From positions 1 through 32,940 of the forward strand of contig JAAYEA010000532.1 of NCBI GenBank assembly GCA_012689325.1: 32,940 nucleotides of DNA, given 5' to 3'. The notes below the pieces were generated by a model, which had not been told where the DNA came from, did no database searches, and saw nothing but the letters and a program-made list of their open reading frames with translations. The DNA is from Chloroflexota bacterium. GTDB taxonomy: Bacteria; Chloroflexota; Anaerolineae; JAAYEA01. Positions within the stretch are counted from its first letter, which is position 1; every line of letters starts with the position of its first letter. This document shows positions 21,280 to 27,011 of this stretch, piece after piece. The translations under genes and the position numbers were made by a program.

Positions 21280-22266
21280 ATGCCCACAACTGCCCTCTTT
21301 GGCCCCTACGGCAGCCAGGCGCTGCAGCACGGCGAGCGCCTGGCGGAATATGGCTGCAATGCCGTCTGGTTCCATGGCTTTGACGAGCGCGCCTTTGACG
21401 CCTGCGCGCGCCACGATCTGGCGCCCTGCGTCGAGTTCCCGACTTTTCGGACCAACTATGACGAGCACCCCGAGCTGGTGCCCATCGGCGCCGACGGTCA
21501 GCCACTGCGGCGCGGGCGGCTCTTTCAGGGCGTCTGCCTCTCCCAACGCGGGTTTGTGGACCGCATCGCCGCCGACCTGTTGGCCGGCGTGCAGCGCTAT
21601 CAGCCCACCGGCATCTGGCTCGATTACCTGACCTACGGCGGCTGGTTCGAGGTTCCCGACCCCGACCTGCAGGAGAGCTGCTTCTGCCCCGCCTGCATCG
21701 CCGAGTTTTGCGAGGCCACCGGCGTCGATGCCGCCACGCCGCAAGCGATCCTCGCCCATCACGCCGGAGCCTGGGCGCGGCACAAGGGCGAGCGCGTCGC
21801 CGGTTACGCGACCCAGTATGCCGCCATCATCCGCGAGCACCTGCCGGATTGCCTCATCGGCGCGTACATGTGCCCCTGGGCCCCGGACGAGTTCGACGGC
21901 GCGCTGAAACGCATCTTTGCCCAGGATCACGCGCTGCTGGCGCCCTCCATCGACGTCTTCACCCCGCTGATCTATGCCGCGAAATGCGGCCGCGCGCCGG
22001 GGTGGGCCGCCGAGGTCTTGACCGCCTCCGCGGCTTGGGTTCCCGCCGGACGCAAGGTGCAATTGATTCTGGACGCGTTGGACTTTCCTGCGAGCTTGCA
22101 GGCCGCCGCGGCGTCGCCCGCGCCCAGTTGGGGCGTGCAGATGTACGGCGGCGCTGACCTATTTGTTGACCCGACCCAGGCGCGCCAGTGGGCGGACGCT
22201 ATCGCCCAGATGCGCGGGAACCTGGAGGGAGGCGCTTGCGATGATCATCCGCCCCTTGTCCGCTGA
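21280..22266 (+). CDS. Uncharacterised glycosidase-like TIM-barrel protein
   Basis: Soluble protein of 328 residues. The sequence reads like a (beta/alpha)8 barrel of the family seen in hypothetical glycosidases with GH10/GH42-like folds: GCNAVWFHGFDERAFDACAR, then GIWLDYLTYGGWFE, a Cys pair in SCFCPACIAEF, AAIIREHLPDCLIGAYMCPW, and DVFTPLIYAAKCGR. The Cys-x-Cys-x2-Cys cluster followed by a helix resembles the FCPxC segment of proteins that enclose the barrel with a small zinc-binding or disulfide loop. Asp in WLDY is a possible catalytic residue. No signal peptide is present. It shares a transcript with the overlapping GNAT gene. I do not recognise a specific family. Confidence 0.72.
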   Translation: MPTTALFGPYGSQALQHGERLAEYGCNAVWFHGFDERAFDACARHDLAPCVEFPTFRTNYDEHPELVPIGADGQPLRRGRLFQGVCLSQRGFVDRIAADLLAGVQRYQPTGIWLDYLTYGGWFEVPDPDLQESCFCPACIAEFCEATGVDAATPQAILAHHAGAWARHKGERVAGYATQYAAIIREHLPDCLIGAYMCPWAPDEFDGALKRIFAQDHALLAPSIDVFTPLIYAAKCGRAPGWAAEVLTASAAWVPAGRKVQLILDALDFPASLQAAAASPAPSWGVQMYGGADLFVDPTQARQWADAIAQMRGNLEGGACDDHPPLVR

Positions 22267-22738
22267 GGACGACCTGCGTGAGCTGGTGGAGCTATCCAGG
22301 GCGTTCTTTGCCGAGTACCAGGGCCACCACGCCGAGTTCTTCAACGTGGAGGATCTGCGCGACGACGATATCCTAGCTTTCTTTTCCCGCTCGCTCGGTT
22401 CCGAGGACCATCGCACCTTCCTCGCCCTGGACGGCGGGCGGATCGTGGGCTATATCACGGTGGCGATCCGCTCCCAGGCCCCGTTCTACCAGGTGCGCCG
22501 CTATGGGACCATCTCGGGGCTCATGGTCCAGCCGGCCTATCGGCGGCAGGGCGTCGCCAGGGGGCTCATGGCGGAGGCCGTCGCCTTTTTTGCGGAGAGG
22601 GGCGTCCGGTATTACACCGTCTATACCGCCGTGGCCAACGAGGGCGCCCTGCGGTTCTACGAGCAGGAGGGGCTGGCCCCGCTGCAGACGGTGCTGATCG
22701 GGAGGGTTGATCCAAAAGCGCGGGATGGCGCGAGTTGA
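22241..22738 (+). CDS. GNAT family N-acetyltransferase
   Basis: Single-domain acetyltransferase of 165 residues. ATG 22241 with GGAGGGAGG at 22224-22232 fits the domain start IIRPLSAEDDLRELVELSRA, and the gene overlaps the upstream one by 26 bp. The acetyl-CoA loop is ISGLMVQPAYRRQGVARGLM (Q/RxxGxG/A type), followed by VYTAVANEGALRFYEQEGL, the typical fourth motif. The substrate, whether a protein N-terminus, small amine or sugar, cannot be told. Its stop codon lies inside the -35 element of the next promoter. Confidence 0.9.
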   Translation: MIIRPLSAEDDLRELVELSRAFFAEYQGHHAEFFNVEDLRDDDILAFFSRSLGSEDHRTFLALDGGRIVGYITVAIRSQAPFYQVRRYGTISGLMVQPAYRRQGVARGLMAEAVAFFAERGVRYYTVYTAVANEGALRFYEQEGLAPLQTVLIGRVDPKARDGAS

Positions 22739-22766
22739 CAGCAGGGCAAATCCTGCTATACTGTCA
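22735..22766 (+). promoter_or_regulatory. Promoter with embedded inverted repeats before the GH/amidase gene
   Basis: TTGACA at 22735-22740 and TATACT at 22757-22762 are separated by 16 bp, with an upstream TGC next to the -10. TGACAG at 22736-22741 is repeated inverted as CTGTCA at 22761-22766, and GCAGG/CCTGC form a nested pair at 22741-22756. The whole promoter is therefore inside a dyad, suggesting a repressor site. Confidence 0.7.
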
Positions 22767-22821
22767 GTAATAATATGGCAGTTGGTTGCAGATTGCCTTG
22801 AGGCAGATTCGGGGGGAGCGC

Positions 22822-24435
22822 ATGGGCAACTCGATGCTGGGCCCGCACATCAATTGGAAATCCGATCAGATTCCCTGGTTGCGCAAGGTCAAGCCCCGCG
22901 TAGCCAAGGTGTTGTTGCAGAACGTGGATCCGGTCTGGATGCGAGAGGCCAAGGAGGCCAGCCCGAACACCTTTTGGGTGGGGCGGCTGGTGGTCTTTCC
23001 GCAACCGTGGGAATCCCCGAAAGAGAACGCGGAAAGGTTCTGCAGCGAGCTTCTATTGCCCGCAGCCGAGCCATTCCGCGGCCTGATCGACGCGTTGGAG
23101 GGATACAACGAGATCGGCTTTACCCAGTTCAAGAGCCGGGCTCCCTCCCTCTTGTCCCGTTTCCTGGGCGCGGCGGCTCGCTCCAACATGGAGGCCCAGG
23201 CCCACGAAGAGATGCAGCGCTACGCCCTGTTCGAAAAGACCCGCGCGCAGATCCTGACCGCCCAGGGCTGGAAATCCGTGGTGGGCAACTTTTCCTCGGG
23301 GACGCCCGAGCTGGAGCTCTGGCCCGACTTTTACCCGGCGCTGGAGGTGGGCGATTACCTGGGGCTGCACGAGTACTCGGCCAATACCCATCCGCCCTAC
23401 CTGGCCAACCTGGACACCTGGCTCTGCCGCCGCTATCAGCGGGTCTATGACGCGCTGCCGGAGAACCTGCGCAAGCCGCTGATCATCACCGAGTGCGGCA
23501 TCGACGGAGGCATGCTGGGGCAGGCGCAGGAGGGCTGGAAGCGCTATACCGACGCGGCGGGCTACCTGAACGAGCTGCAATGGTACGACACCAGCCTCCA
23601 AGCCGACGCCGCCCGCTGGCCCATCGTCGGCGCGACGATCTTTTGCTATGGGCGGGTGGACCCGCGTTGGGAGACCTTTGACATCCACGGCGAGATGTCC
23701 GAGCGCCTGGCGACCTATATGGTGGCCAACCCGCCGCTGCCCTGGAAACCCACCGAGCCGGCCCAGCCCAAAGACGAGCTGGTGGAGCGGCTGAGCGCCG
23801 AGTTCGGGGCCAAGTTCGACGATATCCGCACCGAGCTGATGCGCTCGGGCGAGTTCGACAAGCGCCCGCTGGCGGGCATCAAGCTGCAGGTGATTCATCA
23901 CACCGGCACCGGCACCACGCCCCAGACCTACAGCAACACCATCGCCCGCTATCACGTGGAGAACAACGGCTGGCCCGGCATCGGCTACCATTTCGTCGTC
24001 TATCCGCACAAGGTGCGCTACGTAGGCTCGCTGGATACGGAGCGCGCCAACGTCTGGGGGCGCAATGCCGAGGTCATCGGCATCTCGCTGGTGGGGGATT
24101 TCTCCAAGGAGCCGCCCGCCAGCTCGACGCTGGACCTGTGCAAGCGGCTCTGCAATGTGCTGGATAGCTACCTGGGGCGGCTCTTGCCGCGCGTGGGCCA
24201 CCGCGACGCTTCCTTGCCTGGCCACGGCACCGAGTGCCCGGGCGAGAGCGCCTATGGCCCCGATGGCTGGTTGCAGCGCATCCAGCCCGACGCGCCCGGC
24301 CAGCCCGATGATGAAGACGAGTACGCCGAGGTCAGGGGGCGCGTGGCCACGTTGGAGCAGCAGCTTGTCGCCTGCAGCCTGGAGCTGATGCGCCTGCAAG
24401 AGATCGTCACTCGGCTCAAGCAGGGCCTGCCGTAG
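22822..24435 (+). CDS. Two-domain protein: clan GH-A-like glycosidase plus N-acetylmuramoyl-L-alanine amidase (Amidase_2)
   Basis: Protein of 537 residues starting at ATG 22822 after GGGGGGAG. The first 310 residues look like a clan GH-A barrel: LEGYNEIG with the candidate acid/base Glu97, LHEYSAN near residue 183, and IITECGIDGG with the candidate nucleophile Glu224, in the expected order and spacing. Residues about 350-480 form an Amidase_2/PGRP domain with the zinc ligands His359 or 360 (QVIHHTGTGT), His460 (GHRDAS) and Cys472 (GTECPGE). This would cut between muramic acid and the peptide stem. The last 50 residues are a coiled coil (RVATLEQQLVACSLELMRLQ). No signal peptide is visible. A penicillin-binding protein follows, supporting a cell-wall role. 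A phage-lysin origin is possible. Confidence 0.85.
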   Translation: MGNSMLGPHINWKSDQIPWLRKVKPRVAKVLLQNVDPVWMREAKEASPNTFWVGRLVVFPQPWESPKENAERFCSELLLPAAEPFRGLIDALEGYNEIGFTQFKSRAPSLLSRFLGAAARSNMEAQAHEEMQRYALFEKTRAQILTAQGWKSVVGNFSSGTPELELWPDFYPALEVGDYLGLHEYSANTHPPYLANLDTWLCRRYQRVYDALPENLRKPLIITECGIDGGMLGQAQEGWKRYTDAAGYLNELQWYDTSLQADAARWPIVGATIFCYGRVDPRWETFDIHGEMSERLATYMVANPPLPWKPTEPAQPKDELVERLSAEFGAKFDDIRTELMRSGEFDKRPLAGIKLQVIHHTGTGTTPQTYSNTIARYHVENNGWPGIGYHFVVYPHKVRYVGSLDTERANVWGRNAEVIGISLVGDFSKEPPASSTLDLCKRLCNVLDSYLGRLLPRVGHRDASLPGHGTECPGESAYGPDGWLQRIQPDAPGQPDDEDEYAEVRGRVATLEQQLVACSLELMRLQEIVTRLKQGLP

Positions 24436-24485: not shown

Positions 24486-27011
24486 ATGCGAGCGAACAGC
24501 CTCTTTGCACCGGACCATGCCATGACCCATCGCGAGAACAACCAGCCAAAGCATCGCAGCAAGTGGCCCTACCTCCTGGGTGGGCTGGCGGCGCTGTGCC
24601 TGATCGGCGCCGTCGCTGCCTATCTCTGGCTCTTTGCCGACCTGCCGGACCCCGCGTCCATGCGCCAGGTGCAGGCCAGGGAGACCACCAAGATCCTCGA
24701 CCGAGAGGGGCGGGTCCTCTACGAGTGGCTGGACAACGTGGAGGGCAAGCACACCTATGTGACCCTGGACCGCATCCCCCTGGCCTTGCAGCAAGCGACC
24801 GTCGCCACCGAGGACGCCACTTTCTATCGCAACCCCGGCGTCGACCTGGGAGGCATCCTGCGCGCCGCTTACTATAACCTGCGCTACGGCGAGATCACCT
24901 CCGGGGCCAGCACCATCACCCAACAGACGGCGCGGATCATCTTGTTGCCGGAGGAGCGCTGGGAGCGCACCTGGCGGCGCAAGCTGCGCGAGGCCTTCCT
25001 GGCCTGGCGGATCAGCCGCCTCTTTAGCAAGGGTGAGGTGCTGGAGCTCTACCTCAATTACAGCTATTACGGGAACTATGCCTACGGCGTCGAGGCGGCG
25101 GCGGAGGCCTACTTTGCCAAGCGCGCCGACGAGCTGGACCTGGCCGAAGCCGCCCTGTTGACCGGCTTGCTCCAGGCCCCGGTCCACTATAACCCGCTCA
25201 CCAACATGCAGGGGGCCAAGGAGCGGCAGGATGTCGTGCTGGGGCTGATGGTGGAAGCGGGGTATATCAGCCAAGAGGAGGCCGACCTGGCCTTGGGAGA
25301 GGCGCTGCGCTTTGCGGCTCGCCCCTTTGCCATCAACGCCCCGCATTTCGTGATGATGGTGCGGCAGCAGTTGGAGGAGTGGTACGGCGTGGAGGAGGTG
25401 GCGCGAGGCGGCTGGCGCGTGGTCACCACGCTGGACCTGGACATGCAGCGGCGCGCCGAAGAGATCGTCCGCTACCGCCTGCAACTGCTCTCCGACCCCG
25501 CCTACGATGGCATGGACCACAATGTGCGCAACGCCGCCGCCGTGGTGCTGGACCCAGCGACGGGCGAGGTGCTGGCCATGGTGGGCAGCCCCGACTATTT
25601 CGATGCCGACATCGACGGCGCGGTGAACGCCGCGCTGGCCCCGCGGCAGCCGGGGTCGTCGCTGAAGCCCTTCACCTATGCCGCGGCGCTGGGGGCTGGC
25701 TATACCCCGGCGACGGTGATCTTGGATGTGCGGCGGCCGTTCCTGACCGCCGAGGACCAGCCTTTCGTGCCGATCAACTATGACCGGCGCTTCTATGGGC
25801 CGATCTCGCTGCGCCGGGCGCTGGCTACCTCCTCCAACGTCGCCGCCGTCAGCGTGCTCCACGACATCGGCATCGCCTCGCTCACCGACCTGGCGCGGCG
25901 CATGGGTATCAACTGGCAGGGCGACCTGAAGCGTTTCGGCCTGGCCTTGACCCTGGGCGGCGGCGAGGTGCGCCTGCTGGACCTGACGGCGGCCTATGCC
26001 GGGCTGGCGCGCCAGGGCGTGCGGGTCGAGCCGGTCGCCATCTTGCGCATCGAGGGGCCGGATGGGAGCGGGCGCTACCAAAAGCCCGCGCCTGCGGAGG
26101 ATCGCGTGCTCGATCCCCGCGTGGCCTACCTGATCACTGACATCCTGGCCGATGACCAGGCGCGCGCGCCCGCCTTTGGCGAGCATAGCGCGCTCTATGT
26201 GGGGCGGCCGGCGGCGGTCAAGACGGGCACCACCACCGATTGGCGGGACAACTGGACGGTGGGCTATACGCCGGACCTCGTCATCGGCGTGTGGGCGGGC
26301 AACGCCGATAACGAGCCGATGAAGCAGGTCTCCGGCATCACCGGCGCGGCGCCCATCTGGCATCAGCTCATGGTCGAGTTGCTCAAGGGCAAGCCGGCCA
26401 CGGCCTTTGCGCGGCCTGAGGGCCTCGTGGAGGTGGAGGTCTGCCCCGAGTCGGGGCTCTTGCCGGGGCCGCATTGCCCCAACCGCCGCTACGAGCTGTT
26501 CATCGAGGGGACAGAGCCCGCGCAGCAGTGCGACGCCCACCAGCTCTACCGCATCGACGCCGCCACGGGCGCGCTGGCTGCCGCGTCCACGCCGCCCCAA
26601 CGGGTGATGGAGCGCGTCTATTGGGTGGTGCCGGCGGAGGCGCAGGAATGGGCGCGCGAGCAGGGGATCCCGCAGCCGCCCGCGCGGCTCACGCCGCCCC
26701 AGGCCGTAGATAACGCGGTGGCGTTGGAGATCATCAGCCCCGACCCCAATGCGGAATACGTGATCAGCGCGGCGCTGCCGCGCTCCGCACAATCCATCGA
26801 GATTGCGGCGCGCTGGCGGCTGGCCTCGGCGCCCCGGGCCGTGACGCTGCTGCTGGATGGCGAGCCGCTGGCTGAGCTGGCGCAGCCGCCGTATAGCCGC
26901 CTCTGGAACCTCGCGCCAGGCCAGCACATGGTCCAGGCCGAGGCGGTGGACGCCGAGGGCAAGCGATGGTCCAGCGCGCCGGTGCGCTTTACGGTCACGC
27001 CTGGGCGCTAA
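24486..27011 (+). CDS. Class A penicillin-binding protein (PBP1C-like transglycosylase/transpeptidase)
   Basis: Bifunctional peptidoglycan polymerase of 841 residues anchored by one helix (about residues 28-50). The GT51 glycosyltransferase has VATEDATFYRNPGVDLGG with catalytic Glu109 and GASTITQQTAR at 140-150. The transpeptidase has PGSSLKPF with Ser391/Lys394, SSN at 449-451 and KTGTT from 579. A C-terminal extension with VCPESGLLPGPHCPNRR and an Ig-like end (ALEIISPDPNAEYVISAALP) is characteristic of PBP1C. The His of the usual EDxxFxxHxG motif is replaced by Asn-Pro (FYRNPG). Two ATGs, at 24486 and 24522, are possible and neither has a clear ribosome-binding site. The upstream amidase fusion is 50 bp away and may be co-transcribed. 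Confidence 0.93.
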   Translation: MRANSLFAPDHAMTHRENNQPKHRSKWPYLLGGLAALCLIGAVAAYLWLFADLPDPASMRQVQARETTKILDREGRVLYEWLDNVEGKHTYVTLDRIPLALQQATVATEDATFYRNPGVDLGGILRAAYYNLRYGEITSGASTITQQTARIILLPEERWERTWRRKLREAFLAWRISRLFSKGEVLELYLNYSYYGNYAYGVEAAAEAYFAKRADELDLAEAALLTGLLQAPVHYNPLTNMQGAKERQDVVLGLMVEAGYISQEEADLALGEALRFAARPFAINAPHFVMMVRQQLEEWYGVEEVARGGWRVVTTLDLDMQRRAEEIVRYRLQLLSDPAYDGMDHNVRNAAAVVLDPATGEVLAMVGSPDYFDADIDGAVNAALAPRQPGSSLKPFTYAAALGAGYTPATVILDVRRPFLTAEDQPFVPINYDRRFYGPISLRRALATSSNVAAVSVLHDIGIASLTDLARRMGINWQGDLKRFGLALTLGGGEVRLLDLTAAYAGLARQGVRVEPVAILRIEGPDGSGRYQKPAPAEDRVLDPRVAYLITDILADDQARAPAFGEHSALYVGRPAAVKTGTTTDWRDNWTVGYTPDLVIGVWAGNADNEPMKQVSGITGAAPIWHQLMVELLKGKPATAFARPEGLVEVEVCPESGLLPGPHCPNRRYELFIEGTEPAQQCDAHQLYRIDAATGALAAASTPPQRVMERVYWVVPAEAQEWAREQGIPQPPARLTPPQAVDNAVALEIISPDPNAEYVISAALPRSAQSIEIAARWRLASAPRAVTLLLDGEPLAELAQPPYSRLWNLAPGQHMVQAEAVDAEGKRWSSAPVRFTVTPGR

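Follow-up and report, generated by a model that had tools for sequence, protein, structure and literature searches.

A gene from a Chloroflexota bacterium was found to encode a protein in which a domain of an unnamed clan GH-A-like family, absent from the databases searched, precedes an Amidase_2 domain (Table 1). The gene lies in a stretch of 32,940 nucleotides (contig JAAYEA010000532.1), which was analyzed whole and is called the window here. The encoded protein is laid out as the first domain (residues 1-310), a linker helix, Amidase_2 (residues 349-476) and a C-terminal helix. Judging from sequence comparison and structure modeling, we consider it fairly likely that this protein is a phage-type, two-enzyme wall lysin kept by the host, and that its first module would be a retaining beta-glycosidase targeting a wall-attached or surface glycan. 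The modular type of lysin is itself known.

Table 1. Features of the fusion gene and its surroundings (positions in the window)
Feature	Position	Strand	Basis
Sigma-70-type promoter TTGACA-16-TATACT, extended -10	22735..22762	+	11/12 consensus matches
Shine-Dalgarno GGGGGGAG ahead of ATG 22822	22811..22818	+	Read in sequence
GH-A-like/Amidase_2 fusion gene, 537 aa	22822..24435	+	ORF call, Pfam, GC by codon position
GH-A-like (beta/alpha)8 domain, residues 1-310	22822..23751	+	AlphaFold2 pLDDT 85.5, pTM 0.88; Foldseek to GH26/GH5/GH128
N96-E97, predicted general acid/base just past strand 4	23107..23112	+	Invariant 123/123
H183-E184-Y185, HxY motif, strand 6	23368..23376	+	H 122/123, Y 123/123
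E224, predicted nucleophile on strand 7	23491..23493	+	Invariant 123/123
Linker and short helix (ELVERLSAEFGA)	23752..23865	+	Model of full protein; similar stretch in L159
Amidase_2 domain, residues 349-476	23866..24249	+	Pfam PF01510; PHROG endolysin 1493 E 2.6e-14; solved relatives
Zinc ligand H359	23896..23898	+	Alignment, position
Zinc ligand H460	24199..24201	+	Alignment, position
Zinc ligand C472	24235..24237	+	Alignment, position
Long C-terminal helix, probable coiled coil, residues 497-535	24310..24426	+	DSSP of full-length model
Class A PBP (Transgly, Transpeptidase, BiPBP_C)	24486..27011	+	Pfam; neighbour conserved in sister genus

A first-pass annotation of the sequence had described the ORF at 22822-24435 as lacking a signal peptide. 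This was borne out, as no hydrophobic N-terminal segment was seen in the 537-aa protein and none was gained from the open frame upstream of the ATG at 22822. The cytoplasmic start at this ATG is probably correct because a Shine-Dalgarno sequence and a promoter precede it, and because in the sister-genus gene (L160) the equivalent ATG is preceded by AAAGGAG and, at a distance of about 30 bp, by TATACT. An operator-like dyad (TGACAGCAGGGCA/TGCTATACTGTCA, 22736-22766, 77% complementary) overlaps the promoter -35 and -10. The codon-position GC of the fusion ORF is 0.63/0.45/0.88, and the differences between the window gene and the sister-genus gene are 160/122/240 by codon position. Based on these two patterns, the ORF is taken to be a real protein-coding gene under purifying selection.

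The fusion gene had also been placed directly before a class A PBP, and the Pfam domains found at 24486-27011, in a gene that begins 50 bp downstream, agree with this. The two genes are adjacent in the sister genus too, where they are 61% and 63% identical, respectively, to those in the window; the GH-A domain is 67% identical. The other window genes tested had no match within 14 kb around the sister-genus pair. Phage endolysins are encoded by phages or prophages, whereas no phage families or holin were found among the Pfam matches listed for 22 window ORFs (best 25 of 51 families). Since the pairing with the PBP is kept in the sister genus and no phage family is among these listed matches, the window gene is an example of a phage-type architecture that the host keeps on its chromosome. 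That the PBP neighbour is conserved points to a possible connection with wall synthesis. At 21280-22266 of the window, between a GH3 enzyme and a GNAT gene, lies the gene for a protein of 328 aa that gave no Pfam match (E up to 1) and looks like another barrel hydrolase.

Fold and active sites of the two domains

The three motifs from which the first-pass annotation proposed a clan GH-A glycosidase, GYNEI (E97), LHEY (183-185) and ITECG (E224), are all located where it had placed them. Domain 1-310 was modeled by AlphaFold2 with 20 relatives. The eight predicted barrel strands are, in order, 6-10, 27-31, 51-55, 91-93, 152-157, 179-184, 220-225 and 268-276. In this model, E97 is found just past strand 4, H183 on strand 6, Y185 just past strand 6 and E224 on strand 7. 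The domain is therefore predicted, with good confidence, to be a (beta/alpha)8 barrel with the active-site layout of clan GH-A. Scans of Pfam, NCBIfam and PHROGs gave no family match to the domain, and comparison with the PDB, by sequence and by profile, gave chance-level matches only. The top PDB folds found by Foldseek were GH26 lichenase, GH5-4, GH79, GH1, GH39 and GH128, with E values down to 2e-7 and moderate TM-scores of about 0.5. The solved structures that resemble the domain most closely thus belong to clan GH-A and not to a non-catalytic fold. Model, Foldseek matches, profile comparison and invariant residues all speak for the fold and catalytic layout of clan GH-A type that had been proposed.

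The profile comparison was made with GH128 (PF11790, Glyco_hydro_cc), a family of clan GH-A beta-1,3-glucanases that shares the barrel fold with domain 1-310. When the domain family was aligned by hhalign to GH128-like PF11790 proteins of the same class, the probability was 90.9% (E 1.1e-6), and NEP was paired with NEP, LHEY with IHSY and ITECG with LTEFG-type motifs; the benchmark of GH5 against GH128 gave 90.8%. Two GH128 structures, 6uav and 8j3x, were among the Foldseek matches, the former with about 16% identity in the Foldseek alignment. The -1 site of the GH128 enzyme CBM6E consists of N167, E168, H245, Y247 and E272 (PMC10956234), the same pattern as N96, E97, H183, Y185 and E224 of the window protein, so the GH128-type -1 subsite pattern (N-E, HxY, E) is present in domain 1-310. 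None of 20 domain members passed the PF11790 cut-off by HMMER, and genomes of the same class do hold PF11790 members. In contrast to GH128, the domain family occurs in fusions with wall hydrolases. GH26 and GH5 provided the top Foldseek folds (2cip, 6xso), but domain members matched neither the GH5 (PF00150) nor the GH26 (PF02156) Pfam model, and the window gene is absent among the PF00150 and PF02156 matches listed. Membership in GH5 was rejected at an hhalign probability of 7.9%, a weak match in which NEP and HEY nevertheless align. Homology to GH25 was rejected as well, with an hhalign control of 0.1%.

N96, E97, Y185 and E224 are invariant in all 123 distinct domain sequences, and H183 varies once. 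These homologues reach down to about 25-30% identity and include single-domain secreted proteins. Two of the scans, those of species genomes and viral contigs, used motif patterns that hold both Glu, which biases the counts; therefore, conservation was recounted on homologues found by a whole-protein search without motif patterns, and the same four residues were invariant in 42 of 42. They were also invariant in 20 of 20 sequences from viral contigs. Conservation across the 123 distinct homologues rules out that GYNEI, LHEY and ITECG are chance motifs. Variable Glu residues or a non-catalytic fold had been named in advance as grounds for dropping the glycosidase assignment, and given this invariance neither applies.

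The Amidase_2 domain had been described as having intact zinc ligands, and this holds. Pfam Amidase_2 (PF01510) matches residues 353-475 with E 1.3e-11 and 45.4 bits against a cut-off of 26, and H359, H460 and C472 are in place. The closest PHROGs to the amidase half are endolysin 1493 and amidase 822, and among solved structures PGRPs and the LysT endolysin (4z8i, 6fhg) come nearest to it in sequence. PGRPs and T7-lysozyme-type amidases, the closest solved amidases, share the HHC ligands but lack the N-terminal glycosidase and the C-terminal helix. In the alignment, HHC is intact in the window protein, L101, L157, L158 and L159, and degenerate in the sister-genus proteins L002/L160 (D/H/G) and in L156 (H/R/S), where two ligands are lost. 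Since both domain-1 Glu are kept in all of these proteins, even in L002/L160 and L156 with their degenerate zinc ligands, the glycosidase site is more constrained than the amidase site. The loss of two zinc ligands also means that two-enzyme action is not conserved even in the sister genus. A GH5 (PF00150) enzyme is encoded at L156:249-1316, 1.1 kb upstream of the L156 fusion.

The domain in phages and in Chloroflexota

A scan of viral contigs with the domain as a single sequence gave no matches, and an alignment-based scan of IMG/VR gave 23 loci. Of 20 proteins from tailed-phage contigs, 15 carry the domain as a fusion, with Peptidase_M23 (5), GH25 (4), SLT (4) or Amidase_2 (2). The first-pass annotation had suggested looking in phages for the architecture of the window protein, and one of the 20 viral-contig proteins has it. 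This protein, L101, is found on a 98-kb phage contig and has the same domain order and an intact HHC zinc site; its neighbours include an integrase, an Erf annealing protein, ParB-like proteins and a repressor. Terminase, portal, major head, tape measure, distal tail (Dit) and minor tail proteins are among the neighbours pooled from five of the contigs. The order seen in L101, together with the joining of the domain in tailed phages to peptidoglycan hydrolases of four classes, supports the earlier comparison with phage lysins. Among the matches listed for INPHARED phages (tblastn, E 1e-3), only the amidase half was found, so no listed isolated phage shows the fusion.

Like phage endolysins, the window protein has no signal peptide and carries modules with predicted wall-cutting activity. 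With modular phage endolysins that contain Amidase_2, it shares the cytoplasmic start, the two modules, the intact zinc site and the matches to PHROGs 1493 and 822. It differs in its second enzyme, a clan GH-A-like barrel, as no clan GH-A domain is among the catalytic domains of phage lytic proteins in PhaLP Table 1 (PMC8310338). Among the papers searched, none mentions both 'clan GH-A' and 'endolysin'.

In cells, the domain is present in 27 of 60 sampled relatives. The full protein was matched in 207 of 298 genomes of the class, in some of them through its amidase half alone. In 84,980 species genomes scanned, 80 loci were kept; nearly all are from Chloroflexota, and the few others come from a spirochaete and archaeal MAGs. 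A simple search for signal segments placed a signal peptide or lipobox ahead of the domain in 49 of the 103 cellular members, and these 49 are all single-domain proteins. Another 28 cellular members have no signal segment and carry extra C-terminal sequence, and the window protein is of this kind. LysM was found in 4 and Amidase_2 in 4 of a set of 32 cellular members. Most cellular homologues are single-domain proteins, often secreted, without a peptidoglycan-cutting partner, and the domain is therefore not tied to peptidoglycan. In a tree built by a quick method, the window protein falls outside a supported group (95) that holds all the single-domain proteins, but its exact place is unsure because the branches are long.

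Possible roles of the fusion protein

Clan GH-A enzymes cleave beta-glycosides with retention, with one Glu as acid/base and one as nucleophile, and the Asn ahead of the acid/base contacts the free 2-OH of the sugar. By this chemistry, E97 would donate a proton and E224 would form a covalent glycosyl intermediate, and beta-glycosidic bonds would be cut with retention. The glycosidase may clear a Chloroflexota beta-glycan that is attached to the wall or lies on the surface, after which the amidase may cut the MurNAc-L-Ala bonds beneath the cleared glycan. Lacking a signal peptide, the protein would probably get to the wall when the cell lyses or through a holin-like route. We infer that a different wall glycan is a likelier first target than the peptidoglycan backbone for three reasons: GH25 and SLT partners are already there to cut that backbone, an Asn next to the acid/base fits a sugar whose 2-OH is free, and many cellular members are secreted without a peptidoglycan-cutting partner.

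The glycosidase module could instead cut the peptidoglycan backbone, for example the GlcNAc-MurNAc bond, which would make the protein a true two-bond peptidoglycan cutter. This would fit the fusions to M23, Amidase_2, GH25 and SLT and the LysM in four cellular members, but the fusions to GH25 and SLT would then be partly redundant, and the invariant Asn, with its contact to a free 2-OH, is ill-suited to an N-acetyl sugar at -1. PhaLP Table 1 also has no clan GH-A peptidoglycan glycosidase (PMC8310338), and we regard backbone cutting as rather unlikely. A role in the cytoplasm, with an AmpD-like Amidase_2 acting on imported wall fragments for recycling and the glycosidase trimming attached sugars, is decidedly unlikely. 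The closest PHROG is a phage endolysin, the solved proteins nearest in sequence are PGRPs and LysT rather than AmpD, and the module recurs in phage lysins, all of which weigh against recycling. What speaks for it is the precedent of AmpD as a cytoplasmic Amidase_2 enzyme, the lack of a signal peptide in both genera, whose genes each have a Shine-Dalgarno sequence of their own, and the adjoining class A PBP.

The barrel adjoins catalytic modules in most of the phage proteins, as binding domains do, and might bind the wall without catalysis and so direct the amidase there. The four active-site residues that are invariant in 123 sequences, at identities down to about 25-30% and in single-domain secreted proteins too, make this very improbable. 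It is hardly credible that the gene is a decaying prophage remnant without function: its phage-like architecture in a chromosomal contig and the loss of amidase ligands in the sister genus could be read that way, but it has its own promoter, a purifying codon-position pattern, a conserved PBP neighbour and a GH-A domain that is 67% identical in the sister genus.

Beyond the host-kept lysin that we prefer for the window protein, there is, in our estimate, an even chance that the whole family is a tailed-phage lysin module that removes a Chloroflexota-specific wall glycan, and that hosts keep secreted single-enzyme forms and lysin-like fusion forms for their own wall. If true, clan GH-A would be represented among phage lytic enzymes for the first time; the domain lists for these enzymes hold amidases, peptidases, muramidases, glucosaminidases and transglycosylases. 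The coupling of four such enzyme kinds to a clan GH-A glycosidase would imply that the Chloroflexota wall presents a further barrier to phages, and the enzyme could be used as a probe in the search for that wall glycan. The proposal would also give a function lead for an unannotated family that is present in about half of the sampled relatives. Its recurrence in tailed phages beside four kinds of wall-cutting enzyme makes the domain look like a tool for opening bacterial walls that earlier lists do not contain.

Other members and accompanying domains

The GH-A domain occurs a second time in the genome that holds the window, as the distant copy L155 (G000:C283:20714-21415), with the motifs GYNEI, HEYG and AEIG and neither a signal peptide nor an amidase. 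An unannotated C-terminal domain (VPWMPVNNTAALWKFAKQNGLQDQQTDEI...YVKVGDWGNIKV) with no Pfam match is common to the cellular proteins L026, L046, L128 and L129 and the phage proteins L116, L117 and L121. Another unannotated domain (YERTYVLLPP..ADAAWARAVV..GGSADDAGIGD) follows the GH-A domain at the C-termini of cellular L012, L062 and L075 and in phage L104, L106 and L109. The L106 protein (L106:9710-12811, 1034 aa) combines the GH-A domain, the YVLLPP domain and Amidase_2, and it also has a second barrel-like C-terminal region (GNEWNNP, VIVSEFNH).
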